Positions 1,209-10,147 of a DNA stretch of 14,793 nt are shown here, piece after piece. The position numbers were made by a program, and so were the translations under genes. Position 1 is the stretch's first letter; each line of letters begins with the position of its first letter. The DNA comes from Candidatus Tectomicrobia bacterium (GTDB taxonomy: Bacteria; UBA8248), in NCBI GenBank assembly GCA_016192135.1, contig JACPUR010000020.1:1-14793 (forward strand). The letters are read 5' to 3'. A model generated the notes under the pieces. That model was not told where the DNA came from and made no database searches. It saw nothing but the letters and a program-made list of their open reading frames with translations.

Positions 1209-1418
1209 CTACTTGTTCAAGATAATCACCGGAATGCCCGGCAGACGGCCTTTCACGTTCGGCTCTGAAAAAAGTGTTCCTGCAAATTCAACAACATTCA
1301 CATCTACTTTCCCCCCCTGCGCGCTCACATACCCCGGCGCCACCCATGGATTCATGGCGATGACGGCGAGCGCGAGAGCGATGAGGCTGAACACGATCCG
1401 GTCATAGCGGCTGAGCAT
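1209..1418 (-). CDS. Small membrane-anchored protein of unknown function
   Basis: A 69-aa protein with one hydrophobic segment (about residues 8-27, IVFSLIALALAVIAMNPWVA) followed by a short polar tail with beta-prone sequence (VDVNVVEFAGTLF). The start is supported by AGGAGA about 7 nt upstream. It could be an uncleaved membrane anchor or a signal peptide releasing a tail of about 40 residues. It lies between the tail chaperone and the tape measure, a place where such a protein is not standard, so it may be a moron or host gene carried in the operon. It has its own leader region (1419-1570) with a TATAAT box. I do not recognise a named family. Confidence 0.7.
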   Translation of the reverse strand: MLSRYDRIVFSLIALALAVIAMNPWVAPGYVSAQGGKVDVNVVEFAGTLFSEPNVKGRLPGIPVIILNK

Positions 1419-1462: not shown

Positions 1463-1559
1463 CCGCCGCCCCGGCTCCCGGCGCCGGACGGAGGGAAATA
1501 TAAGCTGGCAGGGGTAAAGACCATTTACCGCAATTCGCGGCAATTTCGCGCACCTTCAT
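1458..1559 (-). CDS. Leader small ORF B (33 aa), paralogous to the sequence at 8718-8783
   Basis: The ORF encodes MKVREIAANCGKWSLPLPAY followed by ISLRPAPGAGAAV and a TAA stop. A second copy at 8783 downwards reads MKVREIARNCGKWLYPDPAY then IP. Differences include three consecutive synonymous third-base changes (Pro CCG/CCA, Ala GCC/GCT, Tyr TAC/TAT). Alignment also suggests a compensating pair of 1-nt indels around CTTTACCCC that restores the frame. Both point to selection on a peptide. No good Shine-Dalgarno sequence precedes the ATG, so translation is uncertain. It ends at the TATAAT box of the next gene and may be a regulatory leader. Function unknown. Confidence 0.4.
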   Translation of the reverse strand: MKVREIAANCGKWSLPLPAYISLRPAPGAGAAV

Positions 1560-1570
1560 GCTCAGGCGGG
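1494..1570 (-). repeat. Duplicated leader element, copy B
   Basis: This 77-bp segment is about 75-80 percent identical by eye to 8718-8793, in the same orientation. It holds repeated half-sites of the type CGAAATTGC/CGCGAATTGC and an inverted repeat GGTAAA-TGGTC-TTTACC. It precedes the 69-aa/tape measure genes, as copy A precedes the capsid gene. It could be an operator or promoter module, a leader peptide, or both. Confidence 0.6.
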
Positions 1571-1614
1571 AAAATTTTCAGGCGGCGAGGGGGAGGAAAA
1601 TCGCTCCGCGCGAT

Positions 1615-1779
1615 CTACACCCTTCCCTCCCCGGACCGCCGCTCGAGGGCGAGGCCGGTCTCGAGCGCCTCCCAGTCGAGGCGCAGCTCCTCCCAGGTGC
1701 ACTCCGCCAGGAGGTGGGGCGGCAGGCCGTAGGCCTTCCCCAGGAGGTGGAGCGCCGCCAGCAGCTCAGCCCGCGCCCT
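1615..1779 (-). CDS. Tail assembly chaperone extension (T-like), probably reached by ribosomal frameshift
   Basis: The minus strand here reads RAELLAALHLLGKAYGLPP then HLLAECTWEELRLDWEALET and GLALERRSGEGRV before a TAG at 1615-1617. It looks like genuine helical protein, with TWEELRLDWE as in other tail-chaperone downstream ORFs. It has no ATG or GTG start and overlaps the end of the chaperone gene (TGA at 1766-1768) in a different frame. Siphophages and Mu-like phages commonly make a G-GT fusion by programmed frameshifting at this position. Here the shift needed is +1 or -2. A -2 shift is known for Mu. The crossover probably lies within about 1769-1800, before the chaperone stop. A separate gene with an unusual start is the alternative. 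Confidence 0.55.
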   Translation of the reverse strand, partial: RARAELLAALHLLGKAYGLPPHLLAECTWEELRLDWEALETGLALERRSGEGRV

Positions 1780-2146
1780 CCGGAAAGGCGCCCCCGGCGG
1801 GGGAAGCCTCCGGGCCCGCGGGCCCGCCCCCGAGCGCCGAGACGGCCTCGAGGATGGCGGCGGCGTCCTCCGGGGCGAGCTCGTGGACGCTCAGCTCCCC
1901 GGGCAGGCACCGGCCCGGCTCCTTCTCGCACATCACGCCCCCCTCTGGGATGAAGCAGCGCCGCAGGACGAGGCGCACCCACTCCCGCGTGGCGTCCTCG
2001 CCGCGCCCCTCCCCCCCGTTGCGCTGGGCGAGGAGGGCGGGATGGTCGGCGAAGTCGAGCACGCTCGGCGCGCGCACGAAGCCCCGGAGGCCCGAGGGCA
2101 GGGTGACGGGGCGGCGGTTGCGGTTGCGGTATTCGGCGAGATCCAT
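1766..2146 (-). CDS. Phage tail assembly chaperone (G-like)
   Basis: A 126-aa protein between the tail tube and tape measure genes, where the tail assembly chaperone lies in siphophages. It begins MDLAEYRNRNRRPVTLPSGL, with the basic/LPSG N-terminus seen in many such chaperones. It has a Cys-containing middle (RRCFIPEGGVMCEKEPGRC) and a Gly/Pro-rich end. Two in-frame ATGs occur at 2152 and 2146. AAAGG directly abuts the first, so the second, with 6-nt spacing, is preferred. Annotation rests on position, size and the overlapping downstream frame more than on a sequence signature. The chaperone coats the tape measure before tube polymerisation. Confidence 0.6.
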   Translation of the reverse strand: MDLAEYRNRNRRPVTLPSGLRGFVRAPSVLDFADHPALLAQRNGGEGRGEDATREWVRLVLRRCFIPEGGVMCEKEPGRCLPGELSVHELAPEDAAAILEAVSALGGGPAGPEASPAGGAFPEGAG

Positions 2147-2152
2147 GCGCAT

Positions 2153-2352
2153 CCTTTCTATGTCCCCCCATTTCGCCTCCCCCCAAAGGGGGGCGGGGCG
2201 GCCCGCCAGAATCCGAAGAGGCTGCCATCAGGCGCCGGCCGGGATGGGCGGTACACTCCTTCCCCCTTCAAGCCATCCCAAGCCGCTTGCGGCTTGGGGG
2301 CCCAAGGTCGAGGGGGAGGTATTGGGGGGATGGGGTTGGGGTGGAAACCTTC
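2153..2352. other. Gap with GC-rich repeat material
   Basis: The 200-bp gap between tail tube and chaperone has no coding potential I can support. It contains C-tract sequence (CCCCAACCCCATCCCCCC on the minus strand) like that in other gaps of this block, and the perfect hairpin at 2277-2298. The plus-strand open frames crossing it are antisense artefacts. Confidence 0.6.
2277..2298. repeat. Perfect inverted repeat (10-bp stem, TT loop)
   Basis: CCCAAGCCGC-TT-GCGGCTTGGG lies downstream of the tail tube gene. It lacks a T-run on either strand, so an intrinsic terminator is unlikely. It could stabilise the 3' end of the upstream message or be a REP-like element. Confidence 0.6.
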
Positions 2353-3492
2353 TCAGGTGAACGTGATCGTCAGCTCGTCGTCCCCGGCGCTGCGGTTCAT
2401 GACGAAGGGCGCCTCGTAGGCGAGGAGGCCGTTCCGGTCGCCGAAGCCCGCCCCCGTGTACTGGCACTTGGGGGCGGCGAGGGTGCAGATGTTGCCGGGC
2501 TGGGAGCCGATGACGGCGGCGAGGGCGGCCTGGGCGCCCGCCTCCCAGTCCGCGAAGAGGTCCTTCGTGCCCTTGAGCACGGCCTCGGGGTCGAAGCTGC
2601 CGGAGGGCGCGCGGCGGGTGACGAGGGCGCCGATGTGGCCTCCCGGAACGTTCGCGCTCTGGCGGAGCACCACGGTGTTGTTCAGGGCGAGGGTCAGGCG
2701 CGAGATGTCGAAGTTGAAGCCGGCGAAGGAGAAACCCGTCACCATGACGGGCGCGGGGATCACCTCCTGGTAGGCCGAGCCCTCGACCAGGGCGGCGTCC
2801 GAGACGAGGAAGTCGGCCGCGGTGAAGTCCCAGTTCACGGCGGGCACGCCGTCGAGCGGGAGCTCGATCGAGAAAGTCCCCATGCAGCCCAGGTAGAGGA
2901 TGCGGAGCCCGTCCAGATAGACGGTGATGCATGCGCGGGTGAAGGCGGCCTTGTCCGAGGTGGGCTTGTAGGCGACGGAGGCGCCGGCCGCCACCGCCTG
3001 CGACATGCCGCAGGCCCGGAAGAGGACGCCGTAGTCCGGCGGCACCCCGGCCGCGCCCGAGCCGCGCAACTCGGTGGCGAAGGAGAGCCGGGCCGAGCGC
3101 TTGCCCATCACGGCCGGGAAGGGTGAGAGGCTCGCGTCCTTCACCGCGCGCTCCAGGCGCTCGATGTTGAGGTCGTGCCGGAAGCTCCCGGCCCGGAAGA
3201 GCTCCGCCGCCGGGGCGGGCCGGTCGAGGAGGTAGCGCGTCCCCGCCGCCGGCTGGACCGTCCAGGCGGGGGTCACGGTGAGGGTGTCGCTCAAGGCGTC
3301 GAAGTCGGAGACGGCGCGCTGCTGGCCCGCGCCCGCCCCCCGGATGGTCTTGAGGATCGAGCCGTTCCAGAAGTCGTCCGCCTCGGTCAGGGCGGCGTCC
3401 GCGAGGGTCGAGGCCCCGGCCGAGTCCGCCGTCAGCTCCCGTTCCTCCGTCGCCCCGATGGTCTGCCGGTCCCTGAACAGCAAGTCGCCCAT
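2353..3492 (-). CDS. Phage major tail tube protein with inserted N-terminal domain
   Basis: A 379-aa protein located after the tail completion and terminator candidates and before the chaperone and tape measure, the position of the siphophage tail tube subunit. The C-terminal two thirds (about 100-379) are beta-rich, consistent with a tube fold. Residues about 26-93 hold a module common in phage structural proteins: TLADAALTEADDFWNGSILK, then GAGAGQQRAVSDFDALSDTL and TVTPAW...YLLDR. This makes it longer than simple tube proteins. The start at 3492 follows AAGGGAG with 8-nt spacing. The function is inferred from order and architecture; it could instead be a related decoration or minor tail protein. 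Confidence 0.6.
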   Translation of the reverse strand: MGDLLFRDRQTIGATEERELTADSAGASTLADAALTEADDFWNGSILKTIRGAGAGQQRAVSDFDALSDTLTVTPAWTVQPAAGTRYLLDRPAPAAELFRAGSFRHDLNIERLERAVKDASLSPFPAVMGKRSARLSFATELRGSGAAGVPPDYGVLFRACGMSQAVAAGASVAYKPTSDKAAFTRACITVYLDGLRILYLGCMGTFSIELPLDGVPAVNWDFTAADFLVSDAALVEGSAYQEVIPAPVMVTGFSFAGFNFDISRLTLALNNTVVLRQSANVPGGHIGALVTRRAPSGSFDPEAVLKGTKDLFADWEAGAQAALAAVIGSQPGNICTLAAPKCQYTGAGFGDRNGLLAYEAPFVMNRSAGDDELTITFT

Positions 3493-3547
3493 GATGCGAT
3501 CTCCCTTTCGTTTGGCCGCCTGCGGCGGCGCGATGATGTCCTGGTCT

Positions 3548-3606
3548 GTAGGGGCGGCCCCCTGTGGCCGCCCTCCACCGGGGCAGGCACGGGGGCCTGC
3601 CCCTAC
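3548..3606. repeat. Two adjacent palindromic GTAGGGGC-type elements
   Basis: The first (3548-3573) begins GTAGGGGCGGCC and ends GGCCGCCC around a CCCTGT loop. The second (3580-3606) pairs GGGGCAGGC with GCCTGCCCC and ends in CCCCTAC. The same pair recurs at 6535-6603, and a relative lies at 5621-5676. They fill the gap between the tail tube and tail-terminator genes. Their nature (REP-like, small non-autonomous mobile element) is unknown. Confidence 0.75.
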
Positions 3607-3619
3607 AGGTCGGTTTGCG

Positions 3620-4153
3620 TCACCCCCTCGCGATCCGCTCGACGGCCTCGATGCGGATCTCGGCCGCGTGGCAGAGGACCGCCCCGAAGCGGCGCGCCTC
3701 CACCGCGTCGACCCGGGGCGGCTGGAGGCGCTCCAGCGTGGCCACCTTCGGGGCGCCCTGCGCGTCGAGGAGCCGGAGCGCCCGGTTGTCCCGGAAGCGG
3801 TCGCACACCGCCTCGACGAGGTCCTGGAAGGCCAGCTCGCTCCCCGTCCCGTCCTCGAGGCCCATCACCCCGAAGAGGAGGAAGGTGTGCGCCCGCCGGT
3901 TCACCCCCGCGGGGACGAAGCCACCCGGCTGGGAGGAGGCCGCCGAGCCCAGCCCCTCGCGCGCCGCCTCGCGCGTCAGCACCCACCCGCGGACCTGGCT
4001 GCGCCCGTCCGGGGCGGTCCAGCGGAAGAAGTCGAGGTACTTCGCCAGATCGGCGGCGTAGCGCTGGTAGAGGTGCACGCGCCCGATGTTCGCCACGGCC
4101 CCGACCTCCGCCACGATGCCCTCGCCGATCTGCCGGTAGTTCGATGCGGCCAT
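3620..4153 (-). CDS. Putative phage tail terminator / minor tail protein
   Basis: A 177-aa protein between the gp10-like and tail tube genes, the usual slot for the tail terminator that caps the tube and joins it to the head. It begins MAASNYRQIGEGIVAEVGAV and ends VLCHAAEIRIEAVERIARG. The mixed alpha/beta pattern and size suit terminators, but I see no diagnostic motif. ATGs occur at 4159 and 4153. GGGGAG abuts the first, giving the second a 6-nt spacing, so 4153 is chosen. The role is inferred from order alone. Confidence 0.5.
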   Translation of the reverse strand: MAASNYRQIGEGIVAEVGAVANIGRVHLYQRYAADLAKYLDFFRWTAPDGRSQVRGWVLTREAAREGLGSAASSQPGGFVPAGVNRRAHTFLLFGVMGLEDGTGSELAFQDLVEAVCDRFRDNRALRLLDAQGAPKVATLERLQPPRVDAVEARRFGAVLCHAAEIRIEAVERIARG

Positions 4154-4176
4154 CGTCATCTCCCCGGTATCGTTTT

Positions 4177-4238
4177 GTAGGGGCGATGCTTGTCATCGCC
4201 CTCAGGCCACGGGGGGCGAACACAAGGTTCGCCCCTAC
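4177..4238. repeat. Two GTAGGGGC-type palindromic elements
   Basis: A first unit GTAGGGGCGATG-CTTGT-CATCGCCC is followed at about 4213-4238 by GGGGCGAAC-ACAAG-GTTCGCCCCTAC. The second overlaps the 3' end of the gp10-like gene: its TAG stop (4235-4237) lies inside the conserved TAGGGGC of the element. Confidence 0.7.
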
Positions 4239-4747
4239 GAAAGGCCCTCTCCCCCCAGCGCCGCCGCGATCTCCTCCCCCAGCCGCCTCGCGCGCTCCTC
4301 GATGCGGCCCTGGCTCGCCTCGAGCGCGCCGCGGAACATGTGCCGCCCCGGCATGCCCCGCCGGGCGATGGCCCGCGCCACGAGAAAGGAGACGCGCCCG
4401 GCCTCCCGGTCCGGGGCGCCCGTGCGCCTCCGCACCCAGGCGTGGAGGGGCGTCCCCGGCCGCCAGGGCGGGAAGCCCCCCGGCGCGCGGCCCTCCTCGG
4501 CCGCGGCGGCGTAGGGTGAGAGGGAGAAGACCTCGCCCTGAAGCTCCTCCACGGACCCGCCCCGCACCTCGCTCCGGATGGAGCCGCGGAGCGCCCCCGT
4601 GACCCCGCCCGGGGCCCGGGCCTCGACCTCGGCGCGGAGCATCCCGGCGATGTCCGCCACCGCCCTCTCCGCGAGACGGAAGAGGATCTCCTCGCCTTCC
4701 CCCTCGAGGAGCGGGCCTTCGATCTCTTGGTGCCATTCGATGGGCAT
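4235..4747 (-). CDS. HK97 gp10-like tail completion / minor tail protein
   Basis: A 170-aa protein of the HK97-gp10 type. These act at the head-tail interface during tail completion. The recognisable core is an N-terminal amphipathic helix (RLAERAVADIAGMLRAEVEA), then RAPGGVTGALRGSIR (the family pattern P...G.L..SI), SLSPYAAAAEEGRAPGGFPP (the Y..Y.E.G motif) and a C-terminal GRHMFRGALEASQGRIEERA helix. The start MPIEWHQEI at 4747 follows CGGAGG with 4-nt spacing; a longer frame from 4789 lacks a ribosome site and runs into repeat sequence. The stop codon falls inside a palindromic repeat, so the extreme C-terminus may have been set by insertion of that element. Confidence 0.75.
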   Translation of the reverse strand: MPIEWHQEIEGPLLEGEGEEILFRLAERAVADIAGMLRAEVEARAPGGVTGALRGSIRSEVRGGSVEELQGEVFSLSPYAAAAEEGRAPGGFPPWRPGTPLHAWVRRRTGAPDREAGRVSFLVARAIARRGMPGRHMFRGALEASQGRIEERARRLGEEIAAALGGEGLS

Positions 4748-4771
4748 CTCGCCTCCGATGGCCGTTCTTAT

Positions 4772-4870
4772 GTAGGGGCCTATGGCCATACGCCCCGAGG
4801 ATGTGTCCGTCCGATGCGGAGATCCGAGGGGCCGATCCCTTTGTAGGGGCGACCGGCCGGTCGCCCCTAC
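4772..4870. repeat. GTAGGGGC-type palindromes, including a perfect 28-bp one
   Basis: 4772-4796 is an imperfect unit (GTAGGGGCC-TAT-GGCC-ATACGCCCC). 4843-4870 is a perfect 28-bp palindrome whose left half is GTAGGGGCGACCGG. The identical 28 bp recurs at 6056-6083. They occupy the 147-bp gap between the connector and gp10-like genes. Confidence 0.8.
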
Positions 4871-4894
4871 GGACGTTTCCGCTTCACGATGTTC

Positions 4895-5593
4895 CTACCG
4901 CTCCGCCGGGCCGCCGTGGGTGAGGTAGTCGCCCCGGCCCGGGGAGAGAGCGTCGTCCCAGTCGAGCGTCGCGCCCGAGGCCCCGGGGGCCTGGGCGGCG
5001 TGGGCGTGGTAGCGGCGCTCGAGCTCCCGCGCGAGCTTGGTGTACTCGGCCGCCTTGCTCTGGTGATCCACGGCGTCGGCCGAGAGGGTGGGCGCCGCCG
5101 TCTGGGCGAAGCGCCGGGCCAGCACGTGGCAGCCCTCGGCGGCGGCGAGCCAGGCGACGGCCCTCTCGTCGTTCGCGGGGACGGTGCTGGAGACCGCATC
5201 GGCCATGTGCGGCAGGGTGTAGAAGAGCCGCGCCGTCTCCCCCGCCCCGGGGGTATGGCGCAGCAGGCGCAGCTTTTCGGCGGAGGTGCCGGGGGCGTAG
5301 AGCGTCCAGTCGCGCCTTTGCAGGTAGACGGGCTCGCGCCGGCCGTGCGGGTACTCCACCGCCTCGACGACGGAGAGGGCGCGATCCCAGCCGGCCGGGA
5401 GGGTGAAGTCGTAGGCCGCGCCGTCCCCGGCGTAGTCCGCGTGGGCGCGGCGGGGGCGGTCCTGGCTGTAGCGCGCGAGGGCGGCGCGGACGAAATCCGC
5501 CCAGTCCGCCTCGGCTGGGGCGAACTCCGCCGGGAGCGAGCCCGCCTGGAGGAGGGCCTTGGCGGCGTCGATGAAGGTCTGGAGGTTGGCCAT
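4895..5593 (-). CDS. Putative head-tail connector / head completion protein
   Basis: A 232-aa protein starting MANLQTFIDAAKALLQ, with AAGGAA 5 nt upstream of the ATG at 5593. Notable segments are YDFTLPAGWDRALSVVEAVE, YLQRRDWTLY, ETARLFYTLPHMADAVSSTV and a long C-terminal helical region (AWLAAAEGCHVLARRFAQTA ... AAEYTKLARELERRYHAHAA). A beta region followed by helices, between the small head genes and the gp10-like gene, fits an adaptor or head-completion protein. I do not recognise a named domain; the assignment comes from position and architecture. Confidence 0.5.
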   Translation of the reverse strand: MANLQTFIDAAKALLQAGSLPAEFAPAEADWADFVRAALARYSQDRPRRAHADYAGDGAAYDFTLPAGWDRALSVVEAVEYPHGRREPVYLQRRDWTLYAPGTSAEKLRLLRHTPGAGETARLFYTLPHMADAVSSTVPANDERAVAWLAAAEGCHVLARRFAQTAAPTLSADAVDHQSKAAEYTKLARELERRYHAHAAQAPGASGATLDWDDALSPGRGDYLTHGGPAER

Positions 5594-5620
5594 GGATTCC
5601 TTCCGGTGTGACCGGTTCGG

Positions 5621-5755
5621 CAGGGGCGGCTCTCTGAGGCCGCTCCGCCGGGGCAGGCACGGGGACCTGCCCCTACGGATGCGTGCGCGTTCAGCAAATT
5701 CATCCACCCCTCCCCCAACCCCTCCCCTTGATAAGGGGAGGGGCGAAGGGGTGGG
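5621..5755. repeat. Repeat cluster between connector and 91-aa gene
   Basis: 5621-5649 is a GGGGCGGC...GCCGCTCC unit, followed at 5650-5676 by GGGGCAGG...CCTGCCCCTAC. At 5719-5743 CCCCTCCCCTT-GAT-AAGGGGAGGGG forms a perfect 11-bp stem within a longer CACCCC...GGGGTG setting. The second type recurs at 6630-6654. Together they fill nearly the whole 163-bp gap. Confidence 0.75.
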
Positions 5756-5756
5756 G

Positions 5757-6032
5757 TTACGTGAATTCCAGGTAGAGCTTGGGCCCCGTGCCGGCGAGGA
5801 CGATGTGGAGCCCCGCGCCGAAATGGATTCCTCCGGCGGGGATGGCGAGGTCCGCGCTGGTGTTGGCGGGAGCTTTCACGGTGCGGAGGATTTTTCCCGC
5901 CGCGGAGGTGTTGTCGTAGAGGACGGCCGAGGCGGCGTCCGCCCCTGCGGTGAGCAGGCCGCCCAGGAGCTTTCCGCTCCCCGTCCGGGCGGTGCCGGTC
6001 GAGGCGATCTCGGTGGTCTCGGATGGGTGCAT
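5757..6032 (-). CDS. Small phage structural protein (91 aa)
   Basis: Begins MHPSETTEIASTGTARTGSG and contains AVLYDNTSAAGKILRTVKAP, then ANTSADLAIPAGGIHFGAGL and a beta-rich end (KLYLEFT). The pattern LYDN.SA.GK.L..V.AP.N.S.D...P..GI.F..GL is one I recognise from small unnamed proteins in phage head modules. AAGGAGG is 4 nt before the ATG. It is likely a decoration, head-fibre or similar virion protein; a precise role cannot be given. Confidence 0.6.
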   Translation of the reverse strand: MHPSETTEIASTGTARTGSGKLLGGLLTAGADAASAVLYDNTSAAGKILRTVKAPANTSADLAIPAGGIHFGAGLHIVLAGTGPKLYLEFT

Positions 6033-6055
6033 GGGTCCTCCTTGCGCCCTGCCCT

Positions 6056-6083
6056 GTAGGGGCGACCGGCCGGTCGCCCCTAC
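6056..6083. repeat. Perfect 28-bp GTAGGGGC palindrome, identical to 4843-4870
   Basis: The left half is GTAGGGGCGACCGG and the right half its exact reverse complement. It is the main content of the 70-bp gap between the 136-aa and 91-aa head genes. Confidence 0.85.
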
Positions 6084-6102
6084 GAAGGCGCGGGCAAATT
6101 GA

Positions 6103-6513
6103 TCAATTCGGCGAGAACTCGACCACCACGCCGAGGGGCGGGAGGGCGATGCCGGTCCCCACCTTCTCGATCTGGAGGGCGAGCTGGGTGCCCTGGACCA
6201 CGGCCAGGGGCGCGGCCGGGGCGTAGAGGACGAGACCGGCGACGCCCAGGCTGTTCCCGCTGGTGAGGTCGTAGTTCGCGACTTCGGCCGCCCCGGCGCC
6301 GTTCGCGCCGCGGTTGACGAGGTTCAGGTGCCGGGTGTTGGTGTCGGCGCCCGTGACGGCGGCGCCGGGGATGACCTTCACTTTCTCGATCCTGCAGTTC
6401 ACCGGGGCCTCGAAGACGACGAAGTCCGCCGTCGGGTCCGCCGCCGCCACGGGCGGGAGCGCCGCCTGGCGGTCGTGCGTTCCCGGGGCGTCGTATGCCT
6501 GCCGCTGGGACAT
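6103..6513 (-). CDS. Putative head decoration / small capsid-associated protein
   Basis: A 136-aa protein immediately after the capsid gene, where decoration or head-stabilising proteins usually lie. It begins MSQRQAYDAPGTHDRQAALP and is rich in beta-prone segments (VVFEAPVNCRIEKVKVIPGA, TRHLNLVNRG, GTQLALQIEKVG, GVVVEFSPN). It has the FEAP.C.I..V..IP.AA.TG.DTN pattern of phage virion beta-barrel proteins. The start at 6513 has AGAGGAGG with 6-nt spacing; the longer upstream frame translates the repeat at 6535-6561 and is rejected. The exact role is inferred from position. Confidence 0.55.
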   Translation of the reverse strand: MSQRQAYDAPGTHDRQAALPPVAAADPTADFVVFEAPVNCRIEKVKVIPGAAVTGADTNTRHLNLVNRGANGAGAAEVANYDLTSGNSLGVAGLVLYAPAAPLAVVQGTQLALQIEKVGTGIALPPLGVVVEFSPN

Positions 6514-6534
6514 GTGTGCCTCCTCTTTTTCCCC

Positions 6535-6654
6535 GGGGCAGGCACGGGGGCCTGCCCCTACGAATCCCGTTATTTCTGTAGGGGCGGCCCCCTGTGGCCG
6601 CCCTGTCGGGTGCTCACCCCTCCCCTCCGCCCCTCCCCTCATCAAGGGGAGGGG
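6535..6654. repeat. Repeat cluster downstream of the capsid gene
   Basis: 6535-6561 (GGGGCAGGC...GCCTGCCCCTAC) and 6578-6603 (GTAGGGGCGGCC...GGCCGCCC) match the pair at 3548-3606. 6630-6654 (CCCCTCCCCT-CATCA-AGGGGAGGGG) matches 5719-5743. The cluster fills the 173-bp gap between the capsid and 136-aa genes, and could act as a transcript-stabilising or attenuating hairpin set below the most heavily expressed gene. Confidence 0.75.
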
Positions 6655-6686
6655 ATGGGGGTGGGGTGATTGAATTGGGGTGCTAT

Positions 6687-8633
6687 TTACGCCGGGGCGC
6701 CGCGGTAGAAGGCGCGGTGGTCGAGCACCGCGCCGCCGTAGACGTGGCGGATCTTGTAGCGGAGCTTGTCGGCGCTGAAGCCGCTGCCCGAGGCGGGGTT
6801 GTCCTCGATGAAGAGCTCGGGCTCCTGCTGATCGTCGAGGAAGCCGATCTCGATGGTGTCCATGAGGGCCGGGTCGGCGACGAGGAACCAGTCGTTCGCG
6901 TCCGTCAGCTCGGGCGCCCAGAGGGGCTCGATCCCCAGCCGGTTGATGACGCTCGGCTGGGTGGAGTTGGCGCTCGAGACGACCTTCACCGCCGACTGGG
7001 TGACGTCGAAGGCCTCCTCGAGCAGGGCCGTCGGGTGGACGAGGTAGCGCGGCTGGGCCTGGGAGGCCGCGGCGGCCCCCTCGCCCGGGAAGGCCTGGGC
7101 GCCCATGGCCTTGATGCCCGCCACGGCGTTTGCGTAGGTCAGGGCGTTCGCCGAGGTGTTCGCGTGGTTGGCGTGGAAGAGCGCCACGCCGTCGTAGATC
7201 GCGGGGTTCGCGGCCAGGAAATCGAAGACGAACTTGTTCAGCGTGCGCTGGGCCGCGCGGGCGAGCCGCCGGGGGATCATGCGGATGGCGCCCATGTCGT
7301 CGTTCTGGATCATCTCCCAGGTCAGGTCCTCGATGCCCCCGCGCTTGGCCACGGCGTAGGTCACCGCCTCGTCCGAGGGCGGGGCCAGGACCGGGTAGGT
7401 GGCCTGCTCGGCCACGGTGGCGAGGTCGCCGTAGCCCCCGACGCGCACCCGGCGGTTGGTGCGGAAGTCCTTCACCGGCACCACGGCCGAGACGATCTTC
7501 CGCCAGAGGTGGAAGCGGTCGTCCCGGAAGTCGCGCAGCAGGGCCCGGCGGATGGAGTCGCCGAAGGCCTCGCCCCAGGTGGCCGTGGTCATGGAGGCCG
7601 AGAGGCGGCGGATGCCGTTCCAGTCCTCCCCGGCGCGGTGGTAGTGGAAGGTCTCGGCGAAGAAGGCCTGGGGCGTGAGCCGGCGCCCGGTGAAGTCCTG
7701 GAAGGCCTCGCTCAGGAAGCGGTAGGGCGCCGCTCCCTCCCGCGCGCGGGGCGCGGGGTCCCAGAGGCCGTCCAGGGCGGCGAGCTTGCGGTCCGCCTCG
7801 TCGCGCACCCCTTCGAGCCTCGCCCCGAAGCCCCGGAGCGCCCCGCTCGCCGTGAGCTTCTCGAGCGTCGCGGCTTCGAGGCGGATGGCCTCCTCCAGCT
7901 CCTCCTCCGTCTCCCCGGCGAACTGCCGCTCCAGCTTCTCCCGGACGGGGGCCGGCAGGCTCGACGCCGCGAGCCGCACCGCCAGCTTCTCGCCCCAGGA
8001 ACCCTCCCCGCCCGCGGCGAGGGCCCGGCCCTCCTCCGAGGCAGGCTTCCCCAGCTTTTCCCGCATCTTCTCGAACATGTCCGTCTCCCCTTCAGGCGGG
8101 CGCCCGGCGGGAAGCCCCAGCAGGGCCCCACCCAGCCGCCCCTTGTGAACGACGTCCACCGAGTGGACCGCCTCGATCGTCAGTATGTGAAGGACGGGCC
8201 TGCCGTCCTCCTCGCGGATCTCCCCGCGCCCCAGCACGTCGAACGAGAAGCCGAAGGGCTCGGGGATGCCGCGCTCGAGCGCGTCGTGCGCCAGCGCGTG
8301 GAACCAGGCCGCCGACTTGGCCACGGCGAAGGTGGAAACGAGGCCCTCCTCCGCCAAGCGCACGCCGCGGTGCCAGCCGATGAGATCCTTGATGTCCGGG
8401 GCGCCCGAGCGGGCGTGGTTGGCGAAGGCCTGGGCCCCCTCGAACAGGGGCGCCGCCTGGGCCAGCACCTCCCGGGGCAGGAACCAGTCCCCCTCCCGCG
8501 AGGGCCCGGGCCGGGCGATGAGCACCTCGAAGTCCCAGGCGCCTTGCCCGCCCTCCTTCGCCGCCCGGAGCACCCCGCCCTGGAGCCGGATGGCCCGGGC
8601 GCGGACGGGCTTTCGTGCGAAGAAACCTCCCAT
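6687..8633 (-). CDS. Prohead protease / major capsid protein fusion
   Basis: A 648-aa polyprotein. Residues 1-180 resemble a phage prohead protease: FANHARSG (H73), PFGFSFDVLG (S130) and ILTIEAVHSVDVV (H157/D160) are candidate catalytic positions. Residues about 181-310 are charged and helical, like a scaffold (MFEKMREKLGKPASEEGRAL, REKLERQFAGETEEELEEAI). Residues about 310-648 form the capsid domain of the Mu gpT-like/HK97-fold type (FFAETFHYHRAGEDWNGIRR, DGVALFHANHANTSANALTY, PRYLVHPTALLEEAFDV, ANDWFLVADPALMDTIEIGF, KLRYKIRHVYGGAVLDHRAF). The start MGGFFARKP at 8633 has AGGAGG upstream. An open frame continues to 8783 but holds the leader element. The protease is expected to act in cis or trans during prohead maturation. 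No portal or terminase precedes it. Confidence 0.85.
   Translation of the reverse strand: MGGFFARKPVRARAIRLQGGVLRAAKEGGQGAWDFEVLIARPGPSREGDWFLPREVLAQAAPLFEGAQAFANHARSGAPDIKDLIGWHRGVRLAEEGLVSTFAVAKSAAWFHALAHDALERGIPEPFGFSFDVLGRGEIREEDGRPVLHILTIEAVHSVDVVHKGRLGGALLGLPAGRPPEGETDMFEKMREKLGKPASEEGRALAAGGEGSWGEKLAVRLAASSLPAPVREKLERQFAGETEEELEEAIRLEAATLEKLTASGALRGFGARLEGVRDEADRKLAALDGLWDPAPRAREGAAPYRFLSEAFQDFTGRRLTPQAFFAETFHYHRAGEDWNGIRRLSASMTTATWGEAFGDSIRRALLRDFRDDRFHLWRKIVSAVVPVKDFRTNRRVRVGGYGDLATVAEQATYPVLAPPSDEAVTYAVAKRGGIEDLTWEMIQNDDMGAIRMIPRRLARAAQRTLNKFVFDFLAANPAIYDGVALFHANHANTSANALTYANAVAGIKAMGAQAFPGEGAAAASQAQPRYLVHPTALLEEAFDVTQSAVKVVSSANSTQPSVINRLGIEPLWAPELTDANDWFLVADPALMDTIEIGFLDDQQEPELFIEDNPASGSGFSADKLRYKIRHVYGGAVLDHRAFYRGAPA
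8076..8078 (-). other. Possible internal start giving scaffold-capsid without protease
   Basis: An in-frame ATG (MFEKMREKL, residue 186 of the fusion) sits about 7 nt after AGGGGAG, at the junction between protease and scaffold regions. Initiation here would give a 463-aa scaffold-capsid, echoing nested scaffold genes such as lambda Nu3 within C. A good ribosome site at a domain boundary is what is seen; its use is inferred. Confidence 0.4.
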
Positions 8634-8717
8634 TTCCCCCTCCTCTCTCCGCTTTTCCCTGCTGGGGTGTGCCTCGTGCGCCCGTGGGGCGCGGGCGCGC
8701 CCGGACGGACGCGCAGA

Positions 8718-8793
8718 GGGAATGTAGGCCGGATCGGGGTAAAGCCATTTACCGCAATTTCGTGCAATTTCGCGCACCTTCATGTTCAGCGGG
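8718..8793 (-). repeat. Duplicated leader element, copy A (with small ORF start at 8783)
   Basis: This copy reads MKVREIARNCGKWLYPDPAY from an ATG at 8783 and contains CGCGAAATTGCACGAAATTG and the inverted repeat GGTAAA-TGGC-TTTACC. It matches 1494-1570 in the same orientation. Here the frame stays open into the capsid gene, but the good ribosome site at 8633 argues that the capsid starts there. It lies at the boundary between the phage block and host cdaA, which starts at 8876 on the other strand. Confidence 0.6.
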
Positions 8794-8875
8794 TTTTTTT
8801 GCCGAAAAAATCAAAAAAGGTTGTTTGAGACGCCCTTTTTGGGCAGGATTGTTCCCGGATCGGGGGGGCGAGCGC

Positions 8876-10147
8876 ATGGCGGAGTGGCTGGAGAGGGTGA
8901 AGGATTTAATCGTCCGCATCCCCTGGAGCCAGGTGATCGACATCGGGATCATGTGGTTCCTGGTGCACCAGGTGTACGTGCGCTTCCAGGGGACGCAGGC
9001 CATGCGCCTGCTCGTGCGGGTCTTTTTGCTCTTCGTGGCCTACCTGGCCGCCCATTCCGCCAATCTGATACTGACCTCCTTTCTGCTCTGGGCGCTGTGG
9101 CTGGCGGCGCTGCTGCTTTTCCTCGTGAACTTCCAGGGTGAGATCCGCCGCATCGCCATGCAGCTCAGGCCGGTGAGCCGCCTCTCGGTGCTGCTCAGGC
9201 GGGCGCGGCGGGTGGTCCTGCCGGAGGAGAGCGTGCTGGGGCTGGCGGAGTCGGCTTTCGCCCTGGCGCGAAAGGGCATCGGCGCTCTTTTCATCCTGGA
9301 GCGGCGCGACCCGGTCCTCCCCCTGCTGCGCAGCCCGGGGGAGCAGATCGGGGCCGAGATGCGCCCGGCCCTCGTCGAGACGCTCTTCCTCTACAACGCG
9401 CCCTATCACGACGGCGCGGTGCTCATCGGGGAAGGGAAAATCCAGCGCGCCGGCTGCGTGCTGCCCTTGTCCGAGAACTCGGACCTCCCCCCCGTCTACG
9501 GCACCCGGCACCGCGCGGCCATCGGGATCAGCGAGGCCTCGGACGCGCTTGGGGTGGTGGTATCGGAGCAGCGGCGCGAGGTGTCGGCCGTGGAGCATGG
9601 GGACATCCACACGATGGAGACGGCCGGCGAGCTGGCCACTTGGCTCTCGGCCCGCCTGCGGGCGCGCGCGGAGCCGAAGGGGGCGGCGGAGGCCCTGAAG
9701 GAGGCGCTGCTCTCGAACTGGCGGTCCAAGACGGCCACGCTCGCGGCCGTGTGCCTGCTCTGGCTCGTGGGCTCCTACCAGCGCGGAAACCCACGCGACA
9801 ACCTCTTCAGCCGGATCGCCCCAGGGGTGGAGGAGACGTACTCGGTGCCGGTTTCCTACTACAACCTGGAGAAGGGGCTCGCCCTGGGCGCCGTGCCCCA
9901 CGAGAGGGTGAAGGTGAGGCTGCGCGCCCGGCAGGACACGCTCAACTTCCTCGACCCGGGCCGCCTCCGGGTGAACGTGAACCTCGCGGGCCGCTCCGAT
10001 GGGCTGGCGCGGATCGACCTCTCGGCCCGCAATATCGACCTGCCCGTCGAAATCCAGGTGATGGAAATCCAGCCGCCGGAGATCTCCGTCCCCATCGTGC
10101 GGCGCGGGCCGCGCCCGTCCGCGAAACCCTCCCCGCCGGCCCCCTAG
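8876..10147 (+). CDS. cdaA: Diadenylate cyclase (CdaA type) fused to a YbbR/CdaR domain
   Basis: A 423-aa membrane enzyme that makes c-di-AMP from two ATP. N-terminal hydrophobic segments lie at about 17-33, 43-60 and 62-85. The DAC domain spans about 115-265 with both signature motifs: YHDGAVLI (DGA at 179-181) and GTRHRAAIGISEASDA (RHR at 211-213). A fourth hydrophobic segment (about 287-300, TLAAVCLLWLVGS) is followed by a YbbR domain at about 320-405 (VPVSYYNLEKGLALGAVPHE, VRVNVNLAGRSDGLARIDLS), which should face outward. In Firmicutes CdaA and its YbbR-domain regulator CdaR are separate adjacent genes; here they are one chain. The ATG at 8876 begins the canonical N-terminus, with a G-rich weak ribosome site; upstream in-frame sequence is not CdaA-like. 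Confidence 0.9.
   Translation: MAEWLERVKDLIVRIPWSQVIDIGIMWFLVHQVYVRFQGTQAMRLLVRVFLLFVAYLAAHSANLILTSFLLWALWLAALLLFLVNFQGEIRRIAMQLRPVSRLSVLLRRARRVVLPEESVLGLAESAFALARKGIGALFILERRDPVLPLLRSPGEQIGAEMRPALVETLFLYNAPYHDGAVLIGEGKIQRAGCVLPLSENSDLPPVYGTRHRAAIGISEASDALGVVVSEQRREVSAVEHGDIHTMETAGELATWLSARLRARAEPKGAAEALKEALLSNWRSKTATLAAVCLLWLVGSYQRGNPRDNLFSRIAPGVEETYSVPVSYYNLEKGLALGAVPHERVKVRLRARQDTLNFLDPGRLRVNVNLAGRSDGLARIDLSARNIDLPVEIQVMEIQPPEISVPIVRRGPRPSAKPSPPAP

Follow-up and report, generated by a model that had tools for sequence, protein, structure and literature searches.

Genes and features of the locus

The window analysed here, a stretch of 14,793 nucleotides from Candidatus Tectomicrobia bacterium (assembly GCA_016192135.1, contig JACPUR010000020.1, designated contig C20 of genome G000), carries a group of phage genes on its minus strand and two copies of a short intergenic sequence, termed element G. 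We describe this element, its dispersal over the chromosome next to short modules that match small terminase (terS) genes, and a possible connection of both with a candidate gene transfer agent (GTA). The two window copies (1511-1570 and 8736-8793, both on the minus strand) are 88% identical over 60 bp in a within-window alignment (E 2e-13) and precede the gene of a 69-aa protein (start 1418) and the capsid gene (start 8633), respectively, in agreement with a preliminary description of the window, which had reported a duplicated element upstream of phage genes. The true downstream limit of each copy is formed by a TANNTT box at 1497-1502 and 8721-8726.

The features of the window are listed in Table 1; gene calls were made with a codon-usage script trained on the stretches analysed. 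The capsid gene starts 81 nt from the transcription start predicted for copy 1, and the divergent CdaA-like gene adjoins the capsid operon in a second genus as well (g5, genome G013). The 69-aa protein belongs to a family with a hydrophobic N-terminal segment (MLSRYDRIVFSLIALALAVIAMNPWVAPGYV), found at G000 C20:1209-1418, on C41 near 347026-347491 and on contig C19 of the genus-mate genome G002; several of these paralogues, on C41 and in G002, lie under the same promoter. An Rfam scan of the window returned no family at the gathering threshold.

Table 1. Features of the window, with their supporting matches
Feature	Position	Strand	Evidence or remark
Copy 1 decamers ATGAAGGTGC / GCGAAATTGC / ACGAAATTGC / GGTAAATGGC	8744..8783	-	profile match 8720-8785, E 4e-17
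Copy 1 -10-like box TACATT, 28 nt after CGGTA	8721..8726	-	predicted transcription start near 8714
Capsid protease/major capsid protein gene, first gene of the operon	6687..8633	-	PF25209 1.6e-44; phrog_133 3e-49
SU10-type adaptor-like protein	4895..5593	-	PF24175 E 0.001, below cut-off
Tail completion/Neck1-like protein	4235..4747	-	phrog_5 4e-11
Tail tube protein	2353..3492	-	PF18906 1.4e-13; phrog_290 8e-17
Copy 2 decamers ATGAAGGTGC / GCGAAATTGC / CGCGAATTGC / GGTAAATGGT	1520..1559	-	profile match 1496-1562, E 2e-16
Copy 2 -10-like box TATATT, 28 nt after CGGTA	1497..1502	-	predicted transcription start near 1490
69-aa protein gene	1209..1418	-	72 nt downstream of predicted copy 2 start
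Tape-measure-like gene, continuing past the contig end	3..1187	-	phrog_10093 2.5e-5, local match only
Divergent host gene, diadenylate cyclase, CdaA-like (sequence reading)	8876..10147	+	51% identical neighbour at G013 C31:57531-58826

Element G is a dispersed, promoter-like sequence

The assembly searched comprises 3.92 Mb in 41 contigs, and most of the genomes compared with it also consist of many contigs. BLAST with the element returned about 30 places at E < 0.01, and a sequence-only profile built from 26 copies raised this to about 64 places at a cut-off of E <= 4e-4, all of them intergenic. The preliminary description had placed the element at the heads of two operons and had asked whether it is confined to the phage block; both window copies do precede phage genes, but the element recurs across the chromosome.

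The copies share a fixed order of parts: an A-rich tract in many copies, one to five direct 10-bp repeats resembling GCGAAATTGC, the motif CGGTAANNGG, and TANNTT. The CGAAATTGC-type repeats noted earlier are present, and they are phased at 10 bp, with a lag-10 identity of 0.52 against about 0.2 at most other lags; some copies lack exactly one 10-bp repeat. After the decamers comes CGGTAA, and a -10-like TANNTT follows exactly 28 nt on. This distance between CGGTA and TANNTT was found in 28 of the 28 first-collected copies, a BLAST set for which the box was unused and 24-32 nt were permitted, and again in all 64 of the later set, which had been gathered with a matrix that contains the -10 box. 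Its promoter-like nature, with the layout of an activator-dependent promoter possessing a -10 box, is well supported at the level of sequence. The tandem decamers would probably be bound by a multimeric activator held rigidly 28 nt from the -10 box, as in a promoter of the late type, from which transcription is predicted to start. A conserved pair of small genes lies near the phage operons in two genera (G000 C10:19611-20257 and G013 C31:92541-93175); one of them is perhaps DNA-binding, making the pair a candidate activator of element G. Two tandem integrase-like genes, recognised by eye, lie near this pair at G013 C31:93576-95923.

Loci in which element G is followed by modules (described below) occur about every 69 kb, with no pair closer than 10 kb on the large contigs, and they are more evenly spaced than random (P about 0.003-0.008 in a post-hoc test). 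Some dispersed loci, such as 25 and 41, are recent duplicates of each other. Copies were also observed at the extreme ends of contigs (C189, C19, C204 and C196 of G002; C7 and C285 of G001), so assemblies probably break at element loci.

The preliminary description had read the element as a leader encoding a conserved MKVREIA-NCGKW peptide, with a GGTAAA/TTTACC inverted repeat as control site, placed ahead of two operons. Of the 57 copies with ATG or ACG at the expected place, 49 keep the frame open. The peptide is nevertheless not sustained by the larger set, as 35 of the 64 copies have ATG at the start and 22 have ACG in its place, losses of 10-bp units shift the frame after REI, and the element of G002 has a different decamer; the inverted repeat is restricted to three of the 64 copies (those of the window and a close paralogue on C41). 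Together with the number of copies, this leaves such a leader with almost no probability. The same number led us to reject attachment (att) sites or plain prophage-flanking direct repeats. In the reader's frame, the decamers of the window copies (1496-1562 and 8720-8785) give R-E-I-A-x-N-C-G-K, resembling the terS helix codons R-V-I-A-D-N-A-G-Y described below, a likeness that may reflect a common origin of promoter repeats and terS modules.

Two classes of element G copies

The copies fall into two classes according to what lies downstream. Seven of the 64 lack modules and are followed, after 48-139 nt, by a gene on the same strand. Six of these precede phage genes, namely the two in the window, a 69-aa paralogue on C41 and three on C10 (terL, the gp26/terS operon and a holin-like gene), and the seventh (L107) precedes a gene without a known phage link. 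The earlier suggestion of co-ordinated control of the phage module is supported by this distribution, with the same element found 48-81 nt before the start codons of the capsid, terL, gp26/terS, holin-like and 69-aa genes.

The remaining 57 copies have one to four short, 10-bp phased modules within 1 kb downstream, always on the strand of the promoter and mostly 45-350 nt from the -10 box; 40 of these 57 loci face a convergent gene at its 3' end. Contig C1, taken whole (380 kb) as an unbiased sample, has module matches only at its four element G loci. Three module-bearing copies precede stand-alone terS paralogues, one of them partial, and about 54 others are without a terS gene. At the dispersed loci that were read, a module of only 36-45 nt is recognisable, the remainder of terS being absent; several modules may share a locus, and none lies in a TerS-like open frame. 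Owing to sequence overlap among the module families, per-family counts do not equal numbers of distinct types. Another dispersed sequence, the palindrome GTAGGGGCGAATCTTGTATTCGCCCCTAC (with variant GTAGGGGCGAGGCATGCCTCGCCCCTAC on C1), is frequent in intergenic DNA and in many cases falls within module loci (e.g., L036, L048 and L055).

Genome-wide scatter unrelated to operon starts, which the preliminary description had regarded as the mark of a simple dispersed repeat, was found in part: the 57 copies are not obvious gene promoters, yet each adjoins terS-like modules. A simple repeat of the repetitive extragenic palindrome (REP) or miniature inverted-repeat transposable element (MITE) type was rejected on the fixed spacing, the partner modules and the shared neighbour genes of G002 given below.

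Module sequences recur inside terS genes of their own genome

Two open reading frames behind element G copies are related to the phage Mu Gp27/small terminase family (PF11985; phrog_426), and a third is partial. PF11985 matches 15 of 16 TerS members at E <= 0.01, with 5e-8 as the best value. Modules sit inside the terS genes on C14, C30 and C2, where they are again 10-bp phased, as they are in the terS genes of G002 and G007. The module covers the codons for the first part of a predicted helix-turn-helix, e.g., EASTIFHDITGEK, and mostly ends before the predicted recognition helix; the helix-turn-helix was assigned from the sequence pattern and family membership. Dispersed modules likewise read in one frame as TerS-like helix codons. 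At a stricter threshold, the 36-nt cores of three terS genes of G000 match 10-20 of 61 other loci of this genome, with up to 33 of 36 identical bases, on the forward strand only; the reverse strand and shuffled sequence gave none.

The genus-mate G002 (genus g1) has its own version of the element, AGGGAATTTGAGGTAA, with the same 28-nt spacing (39 sites), and its terS genes, too, are versions of its own. Of these 39 loci, 14 are matched by the G002 orthologue of the C14 terS, which matches none of the 61 G000 loci (Fisher P 3e-7). A preference for own-genome loci was also found for two other terS genes (P 0.0005 and 0.003) and for the C14 terS itself (P 0.05); one G002 terS has no such preference. 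By this sequence test, the modules appear cognate to the TerS of their own genome. At the module, terS orthologues diverge between G000 and G002, and the dispersed copies diverge along with them. At the same time, 22 of the 39 G002 loci share a neighbour gene with a G000 locus, on the same side and strand. Taken together, the shared neighbours and the genome-specific matching indicate that the places of the loci are inherited, while promoter, module and terS sequences change together.

Element G in other genera

The exact element pattern was found in none of the relatives, and a diverged element was recovered in them with the profile; decamer versions across the family include GCGAAATTG, AGGGAATTTG and CCCGCATTTG. 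The sole match of an all-species pattern scan, in an Ectothiorhodospiraceae metagenome-assembled genome, was dismissed as chance because it has neither the -10 box nor the repeats.

In genus g6, genome G007 shows this layout with other decamers, CCCGCATTTC, and at dispersed places it has modules that match terS L152 of the same genome (91-94% over 33-37 nt); unlike the L152 probe, a probe from terS L167 found no dispersed copies in G007. The four g5 genomes tested have 48-76 dispersed sites each, with decamer CCCGCATTTG and 28 nt to TANNNT, and a reversed control pattern gave none. The g5 element also stands before the capsid, terL and gp26 operons. Its dispersed loci carry a different, AT-rich, 10-bp phased module, which has no known gene source, at no fewer than 40 places per genome. 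Many g5 loci (G013, G009 and G011; L239-L258) have two convergent elements around the AT-rich module.

A domesticated Mu-like phage as a candidate gene transfer agent

The phage gene set comprises the capsid/protease, tail tube and Neck1 genes of the window, terL and portal on C10, and TerS. The structural genes are distributed over several operons (C20 and C10) with no complete phage genome, and host genes lie between the operons on C10 and on G013 C31. The capsid gene is present in 14 of the 18 family genomes with 62-89% identity, at a single place in most, and no capsid relatives were found among 2.9 million viral contigs. In both g1 and g5, three operons retain their host neighbours: the diadenylate cyclase-like gene adjoins the capsid operon, YajQ-like and ammonium transporter-like genes adjoin the terL-portal operon, and a further host gene adjoins the gp26-terS operon. 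In both genera terL is split into two frames (G000 C10:7550-8221 and 8545-9615; G013 C31:68025-69625); the first frame matches terL, and the second was read as the nuclease part but has no family match.

The features expected of a GTA are present: phage structural and packaging genes, vertical inheritance at fixed places, and several operons without a complete phage. That the Mu-like remnant is a domesticated phage and a candidate GTA, which would produce particles, is fairly well supported by these genes.

Possible function of the dispersed loci

Element G together with the modules amounts to the arrangement of a pac site within terS, dispersed without the rest of that gene, and the loci are for this reason read as GTA-controlled, pac-like packaging start sites for the terminase or terminases of the agent. 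We give this reading about an even chance. The six phage-gene copies of element G would drive the GTA structural genes, while the terminase would begin packaging chromosomal DNA at the pac-like module loci, bound there by TerS, and the activator would act through element G at both. Promoter and direct repeats would have been kept together as in the SPP1 pac region, minus the rest of terS. A ring of helix-turn-helix domains with the DNA running along its rim, a disputed model (PMC9611059), would fit the 10-bp phasing. The promoter at these sites may serve to open them by transcription, or the recognised structure may include its decamers. The arrangement suggests that starts for packaging the cell's own DNA are built into its chromosome.

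Several observations weigh against packaging start sites. The g5 dispersed module is absent from the single g5 terS, and this is the main gap, limiting the terS link to g1 and g6. The TerS matches are partly below cut-off, with the C14 TerS scoring 24.4 against a PF11985 cut-off of 28, and a search of solved structures with the alignment gave no TerS match. It is uncertain which terminase would read the sites: the terS adjoining gp26 (G000 C10:15291-15833, L149) seems to be without the helix-turn-helix segment present in its counterparts from other genera, and the stand-alone terS genes that have the segment lie elsewhere, away from terL and portal. Finally, element G is about equally conserved at module loci and at gene promoters, although a packaging site needs no active promoter.

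The main rival is that the stand-alone TerS-like proteins are DNA-binding regulators, the modules being operators in the leaders of short non-coding or read-through transcripts from element G and the loci a regulon. Retention of the promoter-like element at all module loci, the short distance from the -10 box to the modules and the remoteness of the stand-alone terS genes from terL and portal would all be accommodated; we nevertheless consider it unlikely, as most module loci face the 3' end of a convergent gene, with no obvious gene to regulate, and the nearest homologues are small terminases. Less probable still is that the loci are functionless, either degenerate terS remains or a passive dispersed repeat whose identity is kept by gene conversion. 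The TerS-like reading frame of the modules and the few recently duplicated loci are what such remains would leave, but so short a recognisable module, often several to a locus, positions common to two species while sequences co-change, the lack of other copies in the 380 kb of C1 and the spacing, more even than random in the post-hoc test, are not.

Phage origins typically combine iterons with a promoter reading through them, and the run-off replication of the Bartonella GTA is an example of amplification from a phage-type origin. The loci could by analogy be starts of local DNA amplification, with element G providing transcriptional activation and the modules serving as iterons. The general resemblance in layout and the paired convergent elements of many g5 loci fit this proposal; the modules match terS genes and not a replication initiator, and we rate it as a shade more doubtful than functionless remains. 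Very improbable, finally, are silent cassettes that alter the terS helix-turn-helix by gene conversion: they would explain the divergence of terS orthologues between G000 and G002 at the module, and the parallel change of the dispersed copies, but the modules are without the flanking terS homology needed for conversion and lie in no TerS-like open frame.

Returning to packaging start sites, a broader version would extend them to a GTA with programmed packaging, shared by a family of uncultured bacteria, for which dozens of chromosomal pac loci, each with a copy of the agent's promoter and sites for several terminase paralogues, provide fixed starts. Part of the TerS DNA-binding domain is encoded by the very DNA that it would recognise, and protein specificity and chromosomal sites would therefore change together. 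We put this version forward tentatively, as somewhat less probable than the packaging role itself. If true, gene transfer would be aimed at set places kept by selection, through terminase-matched sites under the agent's own promoter. How TerS recognises DNA is a long-standing open question (review PMC9611059), and dozens of matched site and protein pairs, within one genome and between species, would be a source for its recognition rules. The loci also predict where packaged DNA should start.

Comparison with known packaging systems

The prevailing view of known GTAs is that they package host DNA largely at random. Our search of the open literature found no GTA with conserved or discrete chromosomal packaging loci, which is weak evidence of absence as most subscription journals lay outside the search. 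In RcGTA, packaging does not begin at discrete sites, and TerS is without a specific DNA-binding domain (PMC7947584). The present system resembles RcGTA in its domesticated, vertically inherited phage genes in several operons. With phage Mu (gp26-gp27-gp28-gp29) it shares the Gp27-like TerS (PF11985), a capsid with a weak match to Mu gpT and the association of terL with portal; it departs from Mu in the split terL, the scattered operons and the amplification of terS as stand-alone genes.

The direct repeats within or next to terS (C14, C30, C2, G002 and G007) are reminiscent of the pac sites of headful phages. In SPP1, pac consists of direct repeats that extend over the promoters and the beginning of terS (PMC4737164), a single site on the phage genome, whereas here about 57 sites are chromosomal and most are without terS. 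In P22, pac lies within the terS gene (PMC9611059), and about ten Salmonella host sequences resembling it, termed pseudo-pac, start packaging (PMC11226127). The present loci parallel P22 both in a recognition sequence within terS and in its chromosomal look-alikes. Unlike pseudo-pac sites, they are organised, with their own promoter, many are conserved in place between species, and they change along with terS.

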